Below, in pieces: positions 3,507 through 27,644 of a stretch of 64,000 bases of DNA. How positions within the stretch are numbered: position 1 is the first letter of the stretch; each line of letters starts with the position of its first letter. The stretch is from positions 106,359 through 170,358 of the forward strand of contig JABLTG010000018.1 of assembly GCA_016618085.1 (NCBI GenBank), given 5' to 3'. The stretch is from Neovahlkampfia damariscottae (lineage: Eukaryota; Heterolobosea; Selenaionea; Neovahlkampfiida; Neovahlkampfiidae). Both the position numbers and the translations under genes were made by a program. The notes under the pieces are model-generated. The model was not told the DNA's origin, ran no database searches, and saw nothing but the letters and a program-made list of their open reading frames with translations.

Positions 3507-4364
3507 ATGAAAAGAACAGTTCTGTTTATAGTTCTTGTTGTTTTGTTAATTCAGAACATCTCAGCACAAGAAAAAACAGAAATAAAATTGAAACCTTTAT
3601 TTCCAGAACAAATCATCAAGCCACGTGTCAAAGAAACAAAACTCAAAAAGGAAAAGGTGAATATAATAGACCTTCCAAATGACATTTTAAAAGATTTTGA
3701 TAATGAGTTTATAAAAGCTGAAGAAAAACAAGAACCAAAAATTTATCAAGTCGAAAAGGAAACAACTTTCAATTATAGAAAACAGGAAAACAAAGAAAAA
3801 CAAAAAACAAAAGAAACATGGATGACATCATTTCAAAGCAAGTTGTATACTTTGAGAGATACAATTACTCATAAACTTTCTGTAGATAAAACAAATACAA
3901 AAAGAACAATCAAAGGAATTATTAATCGAGTTAGAACTGCTTACAGTAATGCTAATGTAAAATTCCATCTTCAAAAGAAGCAAATTTCAAGAAAAATGAA
4001 AATTTTTGCTGAAAATTTTAAAAAATTATTTGAAAAAGAACCTAGCATAAAATTAGATTTAAATGAAAATGAAAATGAAATTATAGTCATTGTTAATGCT
4101 CCTGGTGTTGATAAACAAGATATCAAAATCATTGTTGAAAATAAAAATGAAAAGAATTTCTTAGTGATTTCAGGTAAATACCCAAAAGATGTTCAAGTTG
4201 GGTTAAAAAAAATACAAGAAAGAAAGTATGGTACTTTTAAGAGATCTTTAGAAATTAAATCAAAAATAAATGAAGAAGGTATAATTGCTTCTTTGGATAA
4301 AGGTATTTTGATGATTCAAATTTCGAAAAAAAAAAATGAAAAATTTAATGTAAAAATAAACTGA
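3507..4364 (+). CDS. Secretory-pathway Hsp20/alpha-crystallin-like protein
   Basis: The start at 3507 gives a clean signal peptide (MKRTVLFIVLVVLLIQNISA). A long Lys/Glu-rich region of about 150 residues follows. The C-terminal 100 residues look like an alpha-crystallin domain: IIVIVNAPGVDKQDIKIIVE, then an ISGKYP strand, YGTFKRSLEIKSKINEEGI and ASLDKGILMIQISKK, where LDKGIL matches the small-Hsp pattern of a short hydrophobic strand before the end. Small Hsps are normally cytosolic or organellar holdase chaperones. A signal peptide plus a charged spacer suggests an ER or secreted form. No introns. Confidence 0.7.
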   Translation: MKRTVLFIVLVVLLIQNISAQEKTEIKLKPLFPEQIIKPRVKETKLKKEKVNIIDLPNDILKDFDNEFIKAEEKQEPKIYQVEKETTFNYRKQENKEKQKTKETWMTSFQSKLYTLRDTITHKLSVDKTNTKRTIKGIINRVRTAYSNANVKFHLQKKQISRKMKIFAENFKKLFEKEPSIKLDLNENENEIIVIVNAPGVDKQDIKIIVENKNEKNFLVISGKYPKDVQVGLKKIQERKYGTFKRSLEIKSKINEEGIIASLDKGILMIQISKKKNEKFNVKIN

Positions 4365-11480: not shown

Positions 11481-11526
11481 TATCAAATTCAAATCGCCAT
11501 TTTTGGTTATGATTCAAATCTTCATT
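11481..11526 (-). promoter_or_regulatory. SECIS-like selenocysteine insertion element (form II)
   Basis: Read on the minus strand, immediately after the TAG at 11528-11530. The 5' core AUGA (11525-11522) is followed by A and the strand GAUUUGAAUC (11520-11511). Then come AUAA with the unpaired AA, a mini-stem CCA/UGG around an A-rich loop, the return strand GAUUUGAAUU (11495-11486), and the 3' core UGAU (11485-11482). The two ten-base strands pair fully if G-U wobbles are allowed. Spacing between the UGA core and the AA is about 13 nt. This is the layout of eukaryotic form-II SECIS elements. No folding program was run. Confidence 0.65.
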
Positions 11527-11527
11527 A

Positions 11528-13207
11528 CTATTTCTTTTTATTCAAAAAACTAATTCCTTTTAGTATCAAATTTCCAGTTGATTTCACTTTTGAATTTTCA
11601 ATCATTTCATTGTTCAATTTCTTGAACACAATTTTTTCGAAAATGTCAATTAAATCAACTCTTATTTTATAATCAGGATCTGTATGATGATATAATATTT
11701 CTTGTTGTTGTTCAAAATCAAACCATTTAATTTCTTTGTCTTCTTTTGTGTCAATTTCATTTTGTTTCAACACAATAGATCCAGATTCAGAAATTAAACC
11801 TTTTTTATGAAATTTAGAAACTAAAAAGTTTGGTTTTGATGTTAACATATGATATCTTTGAGCCAAAATACATTCAGGGTCACTTATTGTTTGGACATTT
11901 ACATTCCAACTTTTCATTCCAATTTCACATTTATCTTGTTCTTCACTACAAACAGCTATCAATATTCCTTTTTCTTTTTCAATTTTCTCCAATAAATTCG
12001 ATTTTTCTATTTGAGTGAAGTATCCTTTTCAGAAAGGTCACCAAAATCCCCTAAAAAATAAAATGGCTACAAATGAATGTTTTTGAACCAATCCATTGAT
12101 ATACTGTACCAATTTATGATTATCATTATTTGAGTCTTTCTTTTCAAGATTCATATCAATTCCATTTTCTTGTGAAATAAATCTATAGATTGAACCATCA
12201 TTTCTAAAGTTATGTGGTTGAATTGATCTAATTAAGTTTTTTGATATCATCAAATCCCCTAAATTCAATGATTCTTCAATTGTAAAATTGTGTTCTTTAA
12301 TAATATAATCAACAAATTCTTGACCTTCAAATGTCTTTGGATTCAAATAACGATCACTGATGAAACCTTTCTTTTTTTTCATTGATTCTTCAAGTTTTTC
12401 AAAATTTATCTTCTTTGATTTCAAAATTGATTCTAAATCATTATCTTTTTCAAATATTCTCTTTAGATCATCGATTGAAGCTCTTTCTTTTGTATTTAGT
12501 TTTGTTGATTGAAATATGAAATCAACAAGTTGAACATCTTTTTTTGCAAGTATTTTTTTCATAAAATTTTCATCTTTTTCTAAATGTTCATGTATTGGAT
12601 TCATTTTATTGGTCAAAAGTTGATAAATTAAAACACCAATTGAAAATACATCAAATTTTTCTGAAATGTTTTCTTTTTTTGGTTTGTATATAGTATTTTC
12701 ATCTTTTTCAACATCTGACTTTAATATATCATATCCATATATGATTAATGAAGAATGTGAAGAAAATTTCTGAACTAAAATAGAGTCAGGCGAGACATTT
12801 CCATGAAACTGTTTGTTTTGATGAAGATATGAAAAAACACTGATTAATTCCTTTGCATAATTTTTAACTGTTTGAACTGGAAGTGGTTTTTTTATTGACT
12901 TTCTTAGTGTTGAAGAATAATAATCCATTGAAATGACAGTTTCATCATTTTGTTCAAAATGTTGAAAGTTCTTTGGTAGGTTTTGATGTTTTAATGAAAA
13001 TAATTTGGTTAACTTGAAGAAGGTTAGAAGTTTCATTTTTTGGTCTACTTGTTCTTTTGTTGGTTTTGACTCTTTTTTGAACTTATGAACTGTAAGTTGC
13101 TGTCAGGCATGTGATTCATCACCTCAGTTCAAGGTGCACATGTACAATGGGAACAGTCCGTTAGTTTCAATTGGTTTTACCAACTTGATGGATGTGTCTT
13201 CCTCCAT
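11528..13207 (-). CDS. Candidate selenoprotein: pseudokinase-DEP-thioredoxin-fold fusion with UPFU motif
   Basis: One frame of 559 codons from ATG 13207 to TAG 11528 contains TGA at codons 28, 35, 390 and 393 and no TAA or TAG. Residues about 8-255 form a protein-kinase fold. The catalytic HRD is HGN (HGNVSPDSIL) and the DFG position reads YGY, so it is a pseudokinase. Residues about 275-350 are a DEP domain (FEGQEFVDYIIKEH, SIYRFIS). From about 377 a peroxiredoxin-like thioredoxin fold begins: FVAILFFRGFW, TGA, PF, TGA, then GILIAVCSEEQDK and TISDPECILAQRYHM. The AhpC/TSA-like family has CPFC here, so the two TGAs replace both redox cysteines, as in SelL-type UxxU proteins. A GATTGG box 29 nt upstream of 13207 supports the long start. 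TGA also ends other genes here, so general reassignment is unlikely. Confidence 0.75.
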
Positions 13208-26028: not shown

Positions 26029-27644
26029 ATGAGTCAATTTCTTTTGAAAGTGTTGTTTTTGTTCAGTTTTTGTTTTTACATCTTTGCTTCATTTAATTGT
26101 AAAGCAAATAAAGAACATATCCAAAACTTGAAACCAAAAGAGTTATGGGTAGTTTTCACAACAAATTTTAACTTTTTTTTGAAGAACTTTTTTTATGAAA
26201 TTTCTTGTCATCCAAGATGCTCTGGAAATGAGAGAATAGTTAGAAAGTATATTGAAGAACATTATGCAAAAAAAAATAATTTTGAGTTTAAAGTTGACAA
26301 AGTTGGAAATTTATTAGTGAAAGTGCCACCAACAAAAGGTTTTGAAAAAAAACCAACTGTGATTATACAAAATCATATGGATATGGTATGTGTAAAAAAA
26401 GAAAAACATGAACATGATTTTGATAAAGATCCTATTCAATTGATTAAAGATAAAACTGGACTTTGGATTAAAGCAAATTTCACGTCGCTTGGAGCTGATA
26501 ATGGATTAGGAATGTCACATGCATTAGCATTAGGTATTGATATAAATATTAACCATGGTCCTTTGGAACTCTTATTCACAGTTGAAGAAGAAACTACTTT
26601 TAAAGGAGTGAATAATTTATCACCAAAATGGTTAACTGGAAAATATTTGATAAATGTGGATTCATCATGGATAGATGGTATAACAGTTGGTAGTTCGGGT
26701 GGTGTTGATGTTGAGAATACTTTTGAACCAAAATTCGAATATGCACCTTCTGGACACACCATTTATCTTATTAAGCTATTTGGGATGATTGGAGGTCATA
26801 GTACAGTAGATATTGACAAACACCGAGCAAATTCGATCAAATTAATGGTAAGAGTATTGAACCATTTGTCAAATAAATCAAATCAATGGTTTCGATTGAT
26901 CACTTTAAAATCCAATTCTGAAAGTGGTATTCCAAACAGTGGAATCATCTACATATCATTGAACCCAAAAAATGAAGAATTGCTAATAAACTTAGTGGAT
27001 GAAATAATGAACCTCATCAAAATTGAATATTTAACATCCGATCCAAAATTATCTTTCACAATCGATAAAGAACATGAAGAACATATCAGAGTATTGAAAA
27101 AAAGTGATGAAATAAAAATAATGAAAATATTGCAAGTATATCCTGATGGTGTTCAATCAATGGAATCTGATTATGAAAAAGCAGTTCAAACATCAGTTTG
27201 TATTTCCGATGTAAATTTAGAGGATGGTGAATTTTCCATTGAAGCCTCAATTTCATCTTCAATGAGATCTTCCATTAATAATACTATTTTGACCATAAAA
27301 AGTTTAGCAAAAATGACAAGAATGACCACTGAAGTTTCAAATTATTATCCAGAATGGATTCCTGATTTAAACTCAAAACTGTTGAATATTTCAAAAGATA
27401 TCCACAAAAAGATGTTTAATAAAGATGTTAAAGTATCTTTAATTCATGGTGGATTGGAAACTGGAGTCAGTAAGTGTTTAAATTGTTGTAAATTTCTTGA
27501 TAAGTCAATTCAAAATATCCAAAGTTAGAAATGATTGCTATTGGATCAGTCGATGAAAATGCTCATAGTATTGAAGAAAGAGTGTTGATTTCAAGTGTAA
27601 AACAAAGCTATGATTTGCTTTGTAATATCATTAAAGCATTGTGA
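26029..27644 (+). CDS. Bacterial-type Xaa-His dipeptidase (PepD-like, M20) with signal peptide
   Basis: ATG 26029 opens a signal peptide (FLLKVLFLFSFCFYIFAS). Removing a 36-nt intron near 26151-26186 gives LKPKELWNFFYEISCHPRCS, the PepD N-terminus. Metal-site motifs follow: IIQNHMDMV, SLGADNGLGMSHALAL and EEETTFKG, and GMIGGHSTVDIDKHRAN. A second intron near 27463-27497 restores HGGLETGV to the final LEMIAIGSVDENAHSIEERV. The gene ends with TGA at 27642. PepD hydrolyses dipeptides such as carnosine-type Xaa-His. This branch is mainly bacterial, so lateral origin is plausible. The signal peptide suggests a digestive vacuole or secreted form. Confidence 0.88.

Follow-up and report, generated by a model that had tools for sequence, protein, structure and literature searches.

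A predicted selenoprotein gene of Neovahlkampfia damariscottae with a UPFU redox motif, a kinase-like domain and a DEP domain

A minus-strand frame with in-frame TGA codons

The window (the whole stretch of 64,000 nucleotides analysed here) belongs to contig 98 of the AT-rich eukaryotic nuclear assembly of Neovahlkampfia damariscottae (20,439,759 bases, 307 contigs). Its GC content lies between 24.7 and 32.2% in 2-kb steps, and it holds eukaryotic genes whose GT-AG introns are short. When adjacent open segments of the window and of 39 loci were surveyed mechanically, 98 candidate introns were obtained, with a median length of 35 nt and a median internal GC of 0.19; the rows of this survey are uncurated, retain the shortest candidate, include repeats between overlapping loci, and two of them come from the gene described below.

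On the minus strand, a frame starting at the Met at 13207 runs, when TGA is read as U (selenocysteine, Sec), through 559 residues to a TAG, with U at positions 28, 35, 390 and 393. Its features are as follows:

13090..13180, minus strand: 5′ stretch with TGA28 and TGA35, a possible intron or upstream of the true start (splice sites, codon score, kinase profile)
13126-13124, minus strand: TGA codon 28, in frame from 13207
13105-13103, minus strand: TGA codon 35, in frame from 13207
12470..13075, minus strand: kinase-like domain, Pkinase over residues 45-246, counted from 13207 (PF00069, 41.9 bits, E 1.1e-10, cut-off 31.7)
12797..12805, minus strand: HRD of the catalytic loop replaced by HGN, codons 135-137 (both alignments to solved kinases)
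12728..12745, minus strand: IIYGYD at the DFG region, codons 155-160 (two alignments to solved kinases, differing in register)
12179..12340, minus strand: DEP domain, residues 290-343 (PF00610, cut-off 32.7)
11531..12118, minus strand: AhpC/TSA-type thioredoxin-fold domain and C-terminal tail, residues 364-559 (PF00578)
12029..12040, minus strand: UPFU, TGA CCT TTC TGA at the CxxC of the redox domain (sequence)
12040-12038, minus strand: TGA codon 390, first of UPFU, in frame from 13207
12031-12029, minus strand: TGA codon 393, second of UPFU, in frame from 13207
11528..11530, minus strand: TAG stop, codon 560 (sequence)

As a previous sequence-only reading of this DNA had proposed, two TGA codons stand exactly at both Cys positions of a CPFC, in a frame that is otherwise continuous and ends at a TAG: over codons 36-559 they are the only in-frame stops. 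The same reading correctly saw the frame open up to the TAG after UPFU, over 166 codons and not the 167 it had counted, and it overlooked TGA28 and TGA35, which also lie within 11528..13207. With the triplet frequencies of the window, the chance probability of the 165 open codons past the second TGA is 2.3e-5. The codon-usage score after UPFU is about +40 bits in frame, and about -40 and -16 bits in the other two frames. Taken in blocks of 20 codons, this score is positive from codon 71 on, except at 131-150 (-4.5), 371-390 (-1.2) and in the final block (-0.4); further upstream, in the five blocks that begin 30 codons ahead of the ATG and end at codon 70, it is always below zero.

The kinase-like and DEP domains called from the sequence hold up against profiles. 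For the former, both alignments to solved kinases confirm the reported replacement of HRD by HGN. At the DFG region, the Asp is absent in every register considered: GYD in the ungapped alignment, IYG when the Gly is aligned, and YGY as originally read. The loss of the Asp thus stands, YGY being one of several possible registers, and we claim only the missing Asp because the two alignments place different letters there. Since HRD is changed to HGN and the DFG Asp is lacking, catalysis by this domain is unlikely, and by its sequence we regard it as a probable pseudokinase. At E 1, neither Pfam nor NCBIfam gave a match to a SelO family. The DEP profile scored 33.4 bits on a fragment and 33.8 bits in the genome search, and 30.1 bits, under the cut-off, on the whole protein. 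DEP domains are abundant in this genome, with at least 54 stretches matched at an E of 0.001 or less, and a DEP fusion by itself is therefore unremarkable.

With TGA read as Cys, the redox domain matched the AhpC-TSA profile with 28.6 bits on a fragment (E 1.5e-6, cut-off 26) and 28.0 bits on the whole protein, UPFU lining up with the active-site part of the profile. Among solved structures, those nearest to it in sequence are ResA, StoA and tryparedoxin, all of them weak matches (best E 0.005). In the NCBIfam library, which was built for bacterial and archaeal proteins, the best redox match was the SelL-related NF040769 (21.4 bits, E 1.5e-4). The active site of SelL is UxxU and, judged by sequence, SelL and the UPFU domain are alike in joining such a site to an AhpC/TSA-type thioredoxin fold; 21.4 bits against a cut-off of 120 make this a resemblance only. 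Of the SelL-type redox domain initially proposed, the peroxiredoxin-like fold with UxxU therefore stands and membership of the family does not.

The nearest relative found for this domain is a Cys-containing SelL-like protein of the same genome (L037, C285, 1426-1797), the CPYC of which lines up with UPFU. Its gene model P0004, identical to it over the 114 residues compared, scored 31.7 bits against NF040769. Among 2673 candidates, the only homologue of the DEP-plus-redox part was P0002, a gene model of the locus itself; the redox domain alone gave none at E 0.01 among 346 candidates, and a two-row profile made of this domain and L037 matched only P0004 among 74. The search for homologues with Cys or TGA at both sites thus yielded a distant CPYC relative in the organism's own genome and none from other species.

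Selenocysteine machinery and a SECIS element behind the gene

All the components of Sec decoding for which the genome was searched were matched: tRNA-Sec, SepSecS, SelD/SPS, eEFSec, PSTK and SBP2. The sequence-only reading had proposed to look for four of these (Sec-tRNA, EFSec, SBP2 and SecS), a check that its interpretation passes. The tRNA-Sec candidate (L001, C93) scored 54.4 bits with RF01852 and has the anticodon UCA according to the alignment. ARAGORN made no call on it, and RF01852 also matches in every one of 14 control genomes, exceeding its cut-off in 5 of them; the assignment therefore relies on the 54.4 bits and the UCA anticodon. The other six RF01852 matches in the genome scored 47.2 bits, and the one examined, L002, is a tRNA-Ser. 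SepSecS was matched in two stretches (443.8 and 109.4 bits, one TAG read through in each) by a profile that matches in 1 of the 14 controls. The SelD/SPS homologue, with one internal TAA, reached 105.5 bits, or 127.8 with its neighbours, for a cut-off of 125; this profile matches in all 14 controls and exceeds the cut-off in 2. eEFSec (L020) was recognised by PF21131 (75 bits) and PF21208 (71.6 bits), the SelB profile giving 83.5 bits, under its cut-off. PSTK is matched in part, over positions 120-298 of 340, and with 89.6 bits it stays under the curated cut-off, which is 382; SBP2 (L047) scored 72.8 bits to 7zjw_B, a solved SECISBP2, the next best reaching 25.3. As a separate observation, another translation-GTPase-like gene (L019, C297, complement of 1-2112; GTP_EFTU_D2 match of 40.9 bits) is broken by an intein (PF14890, 43.6 bits, residues 231-671).

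Three further Sec genes were seen, two from the redox-family search and one from the SECIS search. The thioredoxin reductase (TrxR; L027, C143, minus strand) has the Cys-Sec-Gly end (...NCUG), with the TGA at 1609-1607 and a SECIS at 1558-1515 (RF00031, 26.2 bits), and matched the TGR profile to its last position (144.1 bits). A glutathione peroxidase (GPx2; L038, C221; GSHPx 159.8 bits) carries its TGA at the catalytic position, in NVASEUGLTPKN, followed by a SECIS at 2048-2095. In the third gene (DEP-GPx; L036, C55), a DEP domain (1123-1482, 42 bits) precedes a GPx domain (1486-1974, GSHPx 123.6 bits) whose catalytic position is encoded by TGA. The SECIS of this gene lies at 2005-2052; a TAG between the DEP and GPx parts falls in a putative in-frame intron of 36 nt, placed by eye. 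In all three genes the TGA stands where TrxR and GPx proteins are known to carry Sec. DEP-GPx is the second DEP-selenoprotein fusion of the genome; two such fusions among four Sec genes are suggestive only, because the genes do not come from a full survey.

A SECIS element, absent from the sequence-only reading, begins two bases after the stop of the UPFU gene (TAG TA, then ATGA):

11483..11525, minus strand: type II SECIS core (RF00031, model R1, pattern scan, pair counts)
11525-11522, minus strand: ATGA
11521-11511, minus strand: 5′ arm
11508-11507, minus strand: AA
11506-11504 with 11499-11497, minus strand: mini-helix
11495-11485, minus strand: 3′ arm
11484-11483, minus strand: GA

The arms are 11 bases long, all 11 pairs being G-C, A-U or G-U, and the apical part holds the AA and the 3-bp mini-helix. 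When 91 bases were searched, RF00031 gave a full-length match at 11534-11473 with 22.3 bits, the gathering score being 35. The element did not appear in the RF00031 scan of 3 kb (E 10), nor in that of the genome, where 133 of 496 candidates were scored; for scale, a match of 22.2 bits corresponds to E 0.78 over the whole genome. A 61-base piece has the SECIS hairpin as its minimum-energy fold, at -7.9 kcal/mol (z -1.20), and 23 of 200 shuffled sequences fold equally well. In 161 bases of 3′ sequence the hairpin is missing from the minimum-energy structure, which does not outdo those of shuffled sequences (z +1.31).

Model R1, built from the TrxR and GPx2 elements only, was searched against 11 sources (97,475 bases). 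It ranked these two elements, then a hairpin at L026 (32.6 bits), the UPFU-gene element (30.5 bits, E 0.0026) and that of DEP-GPx (26.3 bits); within the window the UPFU-gene element was best, the next match reaching 24.8 bits. With a strict pattern scanner, made after the elements were known, it was the sole match on both strands of the 64-kb window, and 15 first-order surrogate windows gave 5 matches, none mismatch-free. The same scan recovered two of the three other Sec-gene elements and the L026 hairpin, and missed the bulged DEP-GPx element. The four Sec-gene hairpins are alike in design, apart from one bulge in DEP-GPx, and all share ATGAAGAT and TTTGA. In a padded alignment of the UPFU-gene, TrxR and GPx2 elements, also made once they were known, 97.6% of 42 cells pair and both sides have changed in 10 of 14 pairs, figures that are favoured by the manual fitting of this alignment to the structure. 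None of 500 shuffles reached any of five measures and slid versions paired at most 50% of cells, so that the helices of the three genes are seen to covary.

In the RF00031 scan of the genome, in which 133 of 496 candidates were scored, no SECIS-like hairpin outscored the one at L026 (C10, 1501-1569; 30.9 bits). A selenoprotein frame was looked for upstream of it and upstream of L028 (RF00031, 22.2 bits), and none was recognised at either.

Other readings of the TGA codons

The public EukProt model P0002 splices out both UPFU TGAs, and thereby loses the redox domain. It is reproduced letter for letter by the removal of two GT-AG segments:

12067..12109, minus strand: intron A of P0002, judged not real (43 nt, internal GC 0.28)
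12007..12041, minus strand: intron B of P0002, which removes both TGAs, judged not real (35 nt, internal GC 0.355)

Were P0002 correct, with 12109-12067 and 12041-12007 removed, the gene would encode a pseudokinase-DEP protein with a remnant tail. The candidate introns of this genome are equally short, the GC of intron A is ordinary (17 of the 98 survey rows reach 0.28), and the coding score is about zero nearby (codons 351-390, block 351-370 having only 0.2). Against this, P0002 matches kinase and DEP families only and no AhpC-TSA, the removed letters coding precisely for the active-site part of that domain; the GC of intron B is reached by only 3 of the 98 uncurated rows, and the SECIS would be left idle. 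We thus hold intronic TGAs to be very improbable. Even less probable is a decayed gene, in which two nonsense mutations would have struck an ordinary Cys redox domain. Every TGA is one substitution away from a Cys codon and L037 provides a relative with intact Cys, but decay has to contend with the lack of any in-frame stop other than the two active-site codons over codons 36-559, with a coding signal on either side of UPFU, with a SECIS directly behind the stop and with the Sec machinery of the genome. As for a reassignment of UGA to Cys or another residue, in-frame TGAs at Cys positions do occur in the four genes looked at (the UPFU gene, TrxR and two GPx genes). Three of these carry them at the TrxR and GPx Sec sites and the fourth fits the UxxU of SelL, hairpins of one design (one of them bulged) lie behind all four, and a UCA tRNA with tRNA-Sec features is present. 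TGA moreover works as a stop: it ends 9 of 52 mechanical ORFs of at least 220 codons (TAA 37, TAG 6; uncurated, some perhaps exons), and TGA triplets are present at 4362-4364 and 27642-27644, the two places at which it had been named as an ordinary stop. Because of these stops and of the tRNA-Sec, reassignment is rejected as the least credible of these readings, which bears out the earlier opinion that it was unlikely.

The stretch at 13180-13090, with TGA28 and TGA35, may be an intron, a leader or a place of further Sec codons. A possible intron recognised by eye runs from GTAAAACC to CTGACAG (13180-13100, 81 nt), and a longer version from the same GTAAAACC to CTTACAG (13180-13090, 91 nt). 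Our first view that the two TGAs are cleanly intronic was dropped, the kinase profile scoring alike for all versions of the N-terminus; with a shorter piece, four versions gave 46.0, 46.6, 46.1 and 47.4 bits, none being preferred. The idea that the 91-nt intron gives a better N-lobe was given up on the same scores, and the exon required by this version lacks an ATG downstream of the last in-frame stop. The public model starts at Met58 (13036). Were codons 28 and 35 also Sec, the protein would contain four Sec, the two extra ones falling in the loop that connects strands 2 and 3 of the kinase-like N-lobe. The frame is indeed open from Met 13207 once TGA is read as Sec, a SECIS would act on all UGAs of a message, and the 91-nt stretch, with a GC of 0.43, is far richer than the surveyed introns. 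On the other hand, no clear coding signal is seen in frame upstream of about codon 70, a GTAAAA donor and two usable acceptors could remove both TGAs, and the kinase profile favours no version. A four-Sec protein is therefore possible but not favoured, and we regard it as improbable.

A probable Sec-decoded UPFU site fused to pseudokinase and DEP domains

The gene is a real and unusual one, in which two Sec are very likely decoded in one motif, and its sequence points with high probability to a Sec-decoded protein made of a pseudokinase, a DEP domain and a UPFU redox domain. Its parts are of known kinds, and their combination is new in the open-licence literature searched. There, judged by titles and the beginnings of abstracts, no two-Sec motif joined to a pseudokinase and DEP was found among the matches listed; the sequence-only reading likewise knew of no described protein with this architecture. 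On the same basis, it was not found in searches for selenoproteins with DEP, for selenoproteins with kinase domains in protists or for DEP with GPx, nor among the best 15 of 67 matches for selenocysteine with pseudokinase; no open-licence paper matched peroxiredoxin with DEP and kinase domains.

Individual features have counterparts elsewhere. The literature excerpts describe few eukaryotic proteins that carry two Sec within a single redox motif; in them, UxxU is found in bacterial peroxiredoxin-like proteins and in a SELENOW (PMC2398784, PMC2397514, PMC2874816, PMC7539508, PMC3281104, PMC13188914). According to such excerpts, SelL, a peroxiredoxin-like protein (PMC2398784), forms a diselenide and occurs in fish, invertebrates and marine bacteria (PMC2397514); these excerpts of PMC2397514 and PMC2398784 report neither kinase nor DEP parts for SelL, whereas the UPFU protein has both. 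SelO, as excerpted from PMC3281104, is a predicted pseudokinase with Sec two residues before the C-terminus, in a CxxUxx end. It resembles the UPFU protein in combining a kinase-like fold, predicted to be a pseudokinase, with Sec in one chain (PMC3281104), but its Sec is near the C-terminus, whereas the UPFU gene places it in a redox domain of its own, with 166 codons still to come before the stop. Peroxiredoxin fused to a PP2C-type phosphatase, along with other thioredoxin-fold selenoprotein fusions, is known from marine metagenomes, mostly bacterial (PMC2398784). There too, a redox domain of a selenoprotein family is joined to a signalling enzyme domain (PMC2398784); the partner is a phosphatase in metagenome reads, in contrast to the pseudokinase and DEP found here. 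The algal fusions SELENOM-pVHL, SELENOM-ShKT and GST-MSRA are likewise eukaryotic selenoproteins with extra domains (PMC7539508), but their redox families and partners, as far as the excerpts describe them, are unlike those of the UPFU protein. Closest to hand is DEP-GPx of the same genome, which shares with the UPFU gene a DEP upstream of a Sec redox domain and the SECIS design; it differs by its GPx family and single Sec, and no kinase-like domain was seen in the 3.3 kb read.

For the Sec-decoded protein the following mechanism may be proposed. SBP2 and eEFSec, the genes for which are present, would act through the SECIS behind the stop to decode both UGAs as Sec. As suggested by the fold and by SelL, the two selenols might cycle with a diselenide, in thiol/disulfide exchange or in peroxide reduction, for which the genome's own Sec-type thioredoxin reductase could be the reductant. 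DEP domains have a general role in membrane and receptor placement, and the DEP here could position the enzyme at a membrane or at a receptor/G-protein complex. The dead kinase domain could provide a scaffold or form a module that responds to the redox state. By analogy, the protein may then be a DEP-placed diselenide oxidoreductase scaffolded on a pseudokinase, an assignment that we make only tentatively. A broader proposal is more speculative still: this protist lineage might wire selenoenzymes into membrane signalling by means of DEP domains carrying Sec redox modules (UPFU and GPx), the redox state of the UPFU diselenide switching an allosteric pseudokinase scaffold.

The locus is an example of what standard annotation loses, the redox domain being erased in P0002, and its SECIS is small enough to be studied with a simple reporter. 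Together, the UPFU and DEP-GPx genes offer a testable case for selenoenzymes built into signalling scaffolds. A two-Sec redox site joined to a pseudokinase and DEP would link selenium chemistry directly to a signalling scaffold and, if this is true, the UPFU-DEP-pseudokinase chain would be a redox-to-signal converter in a single protein.
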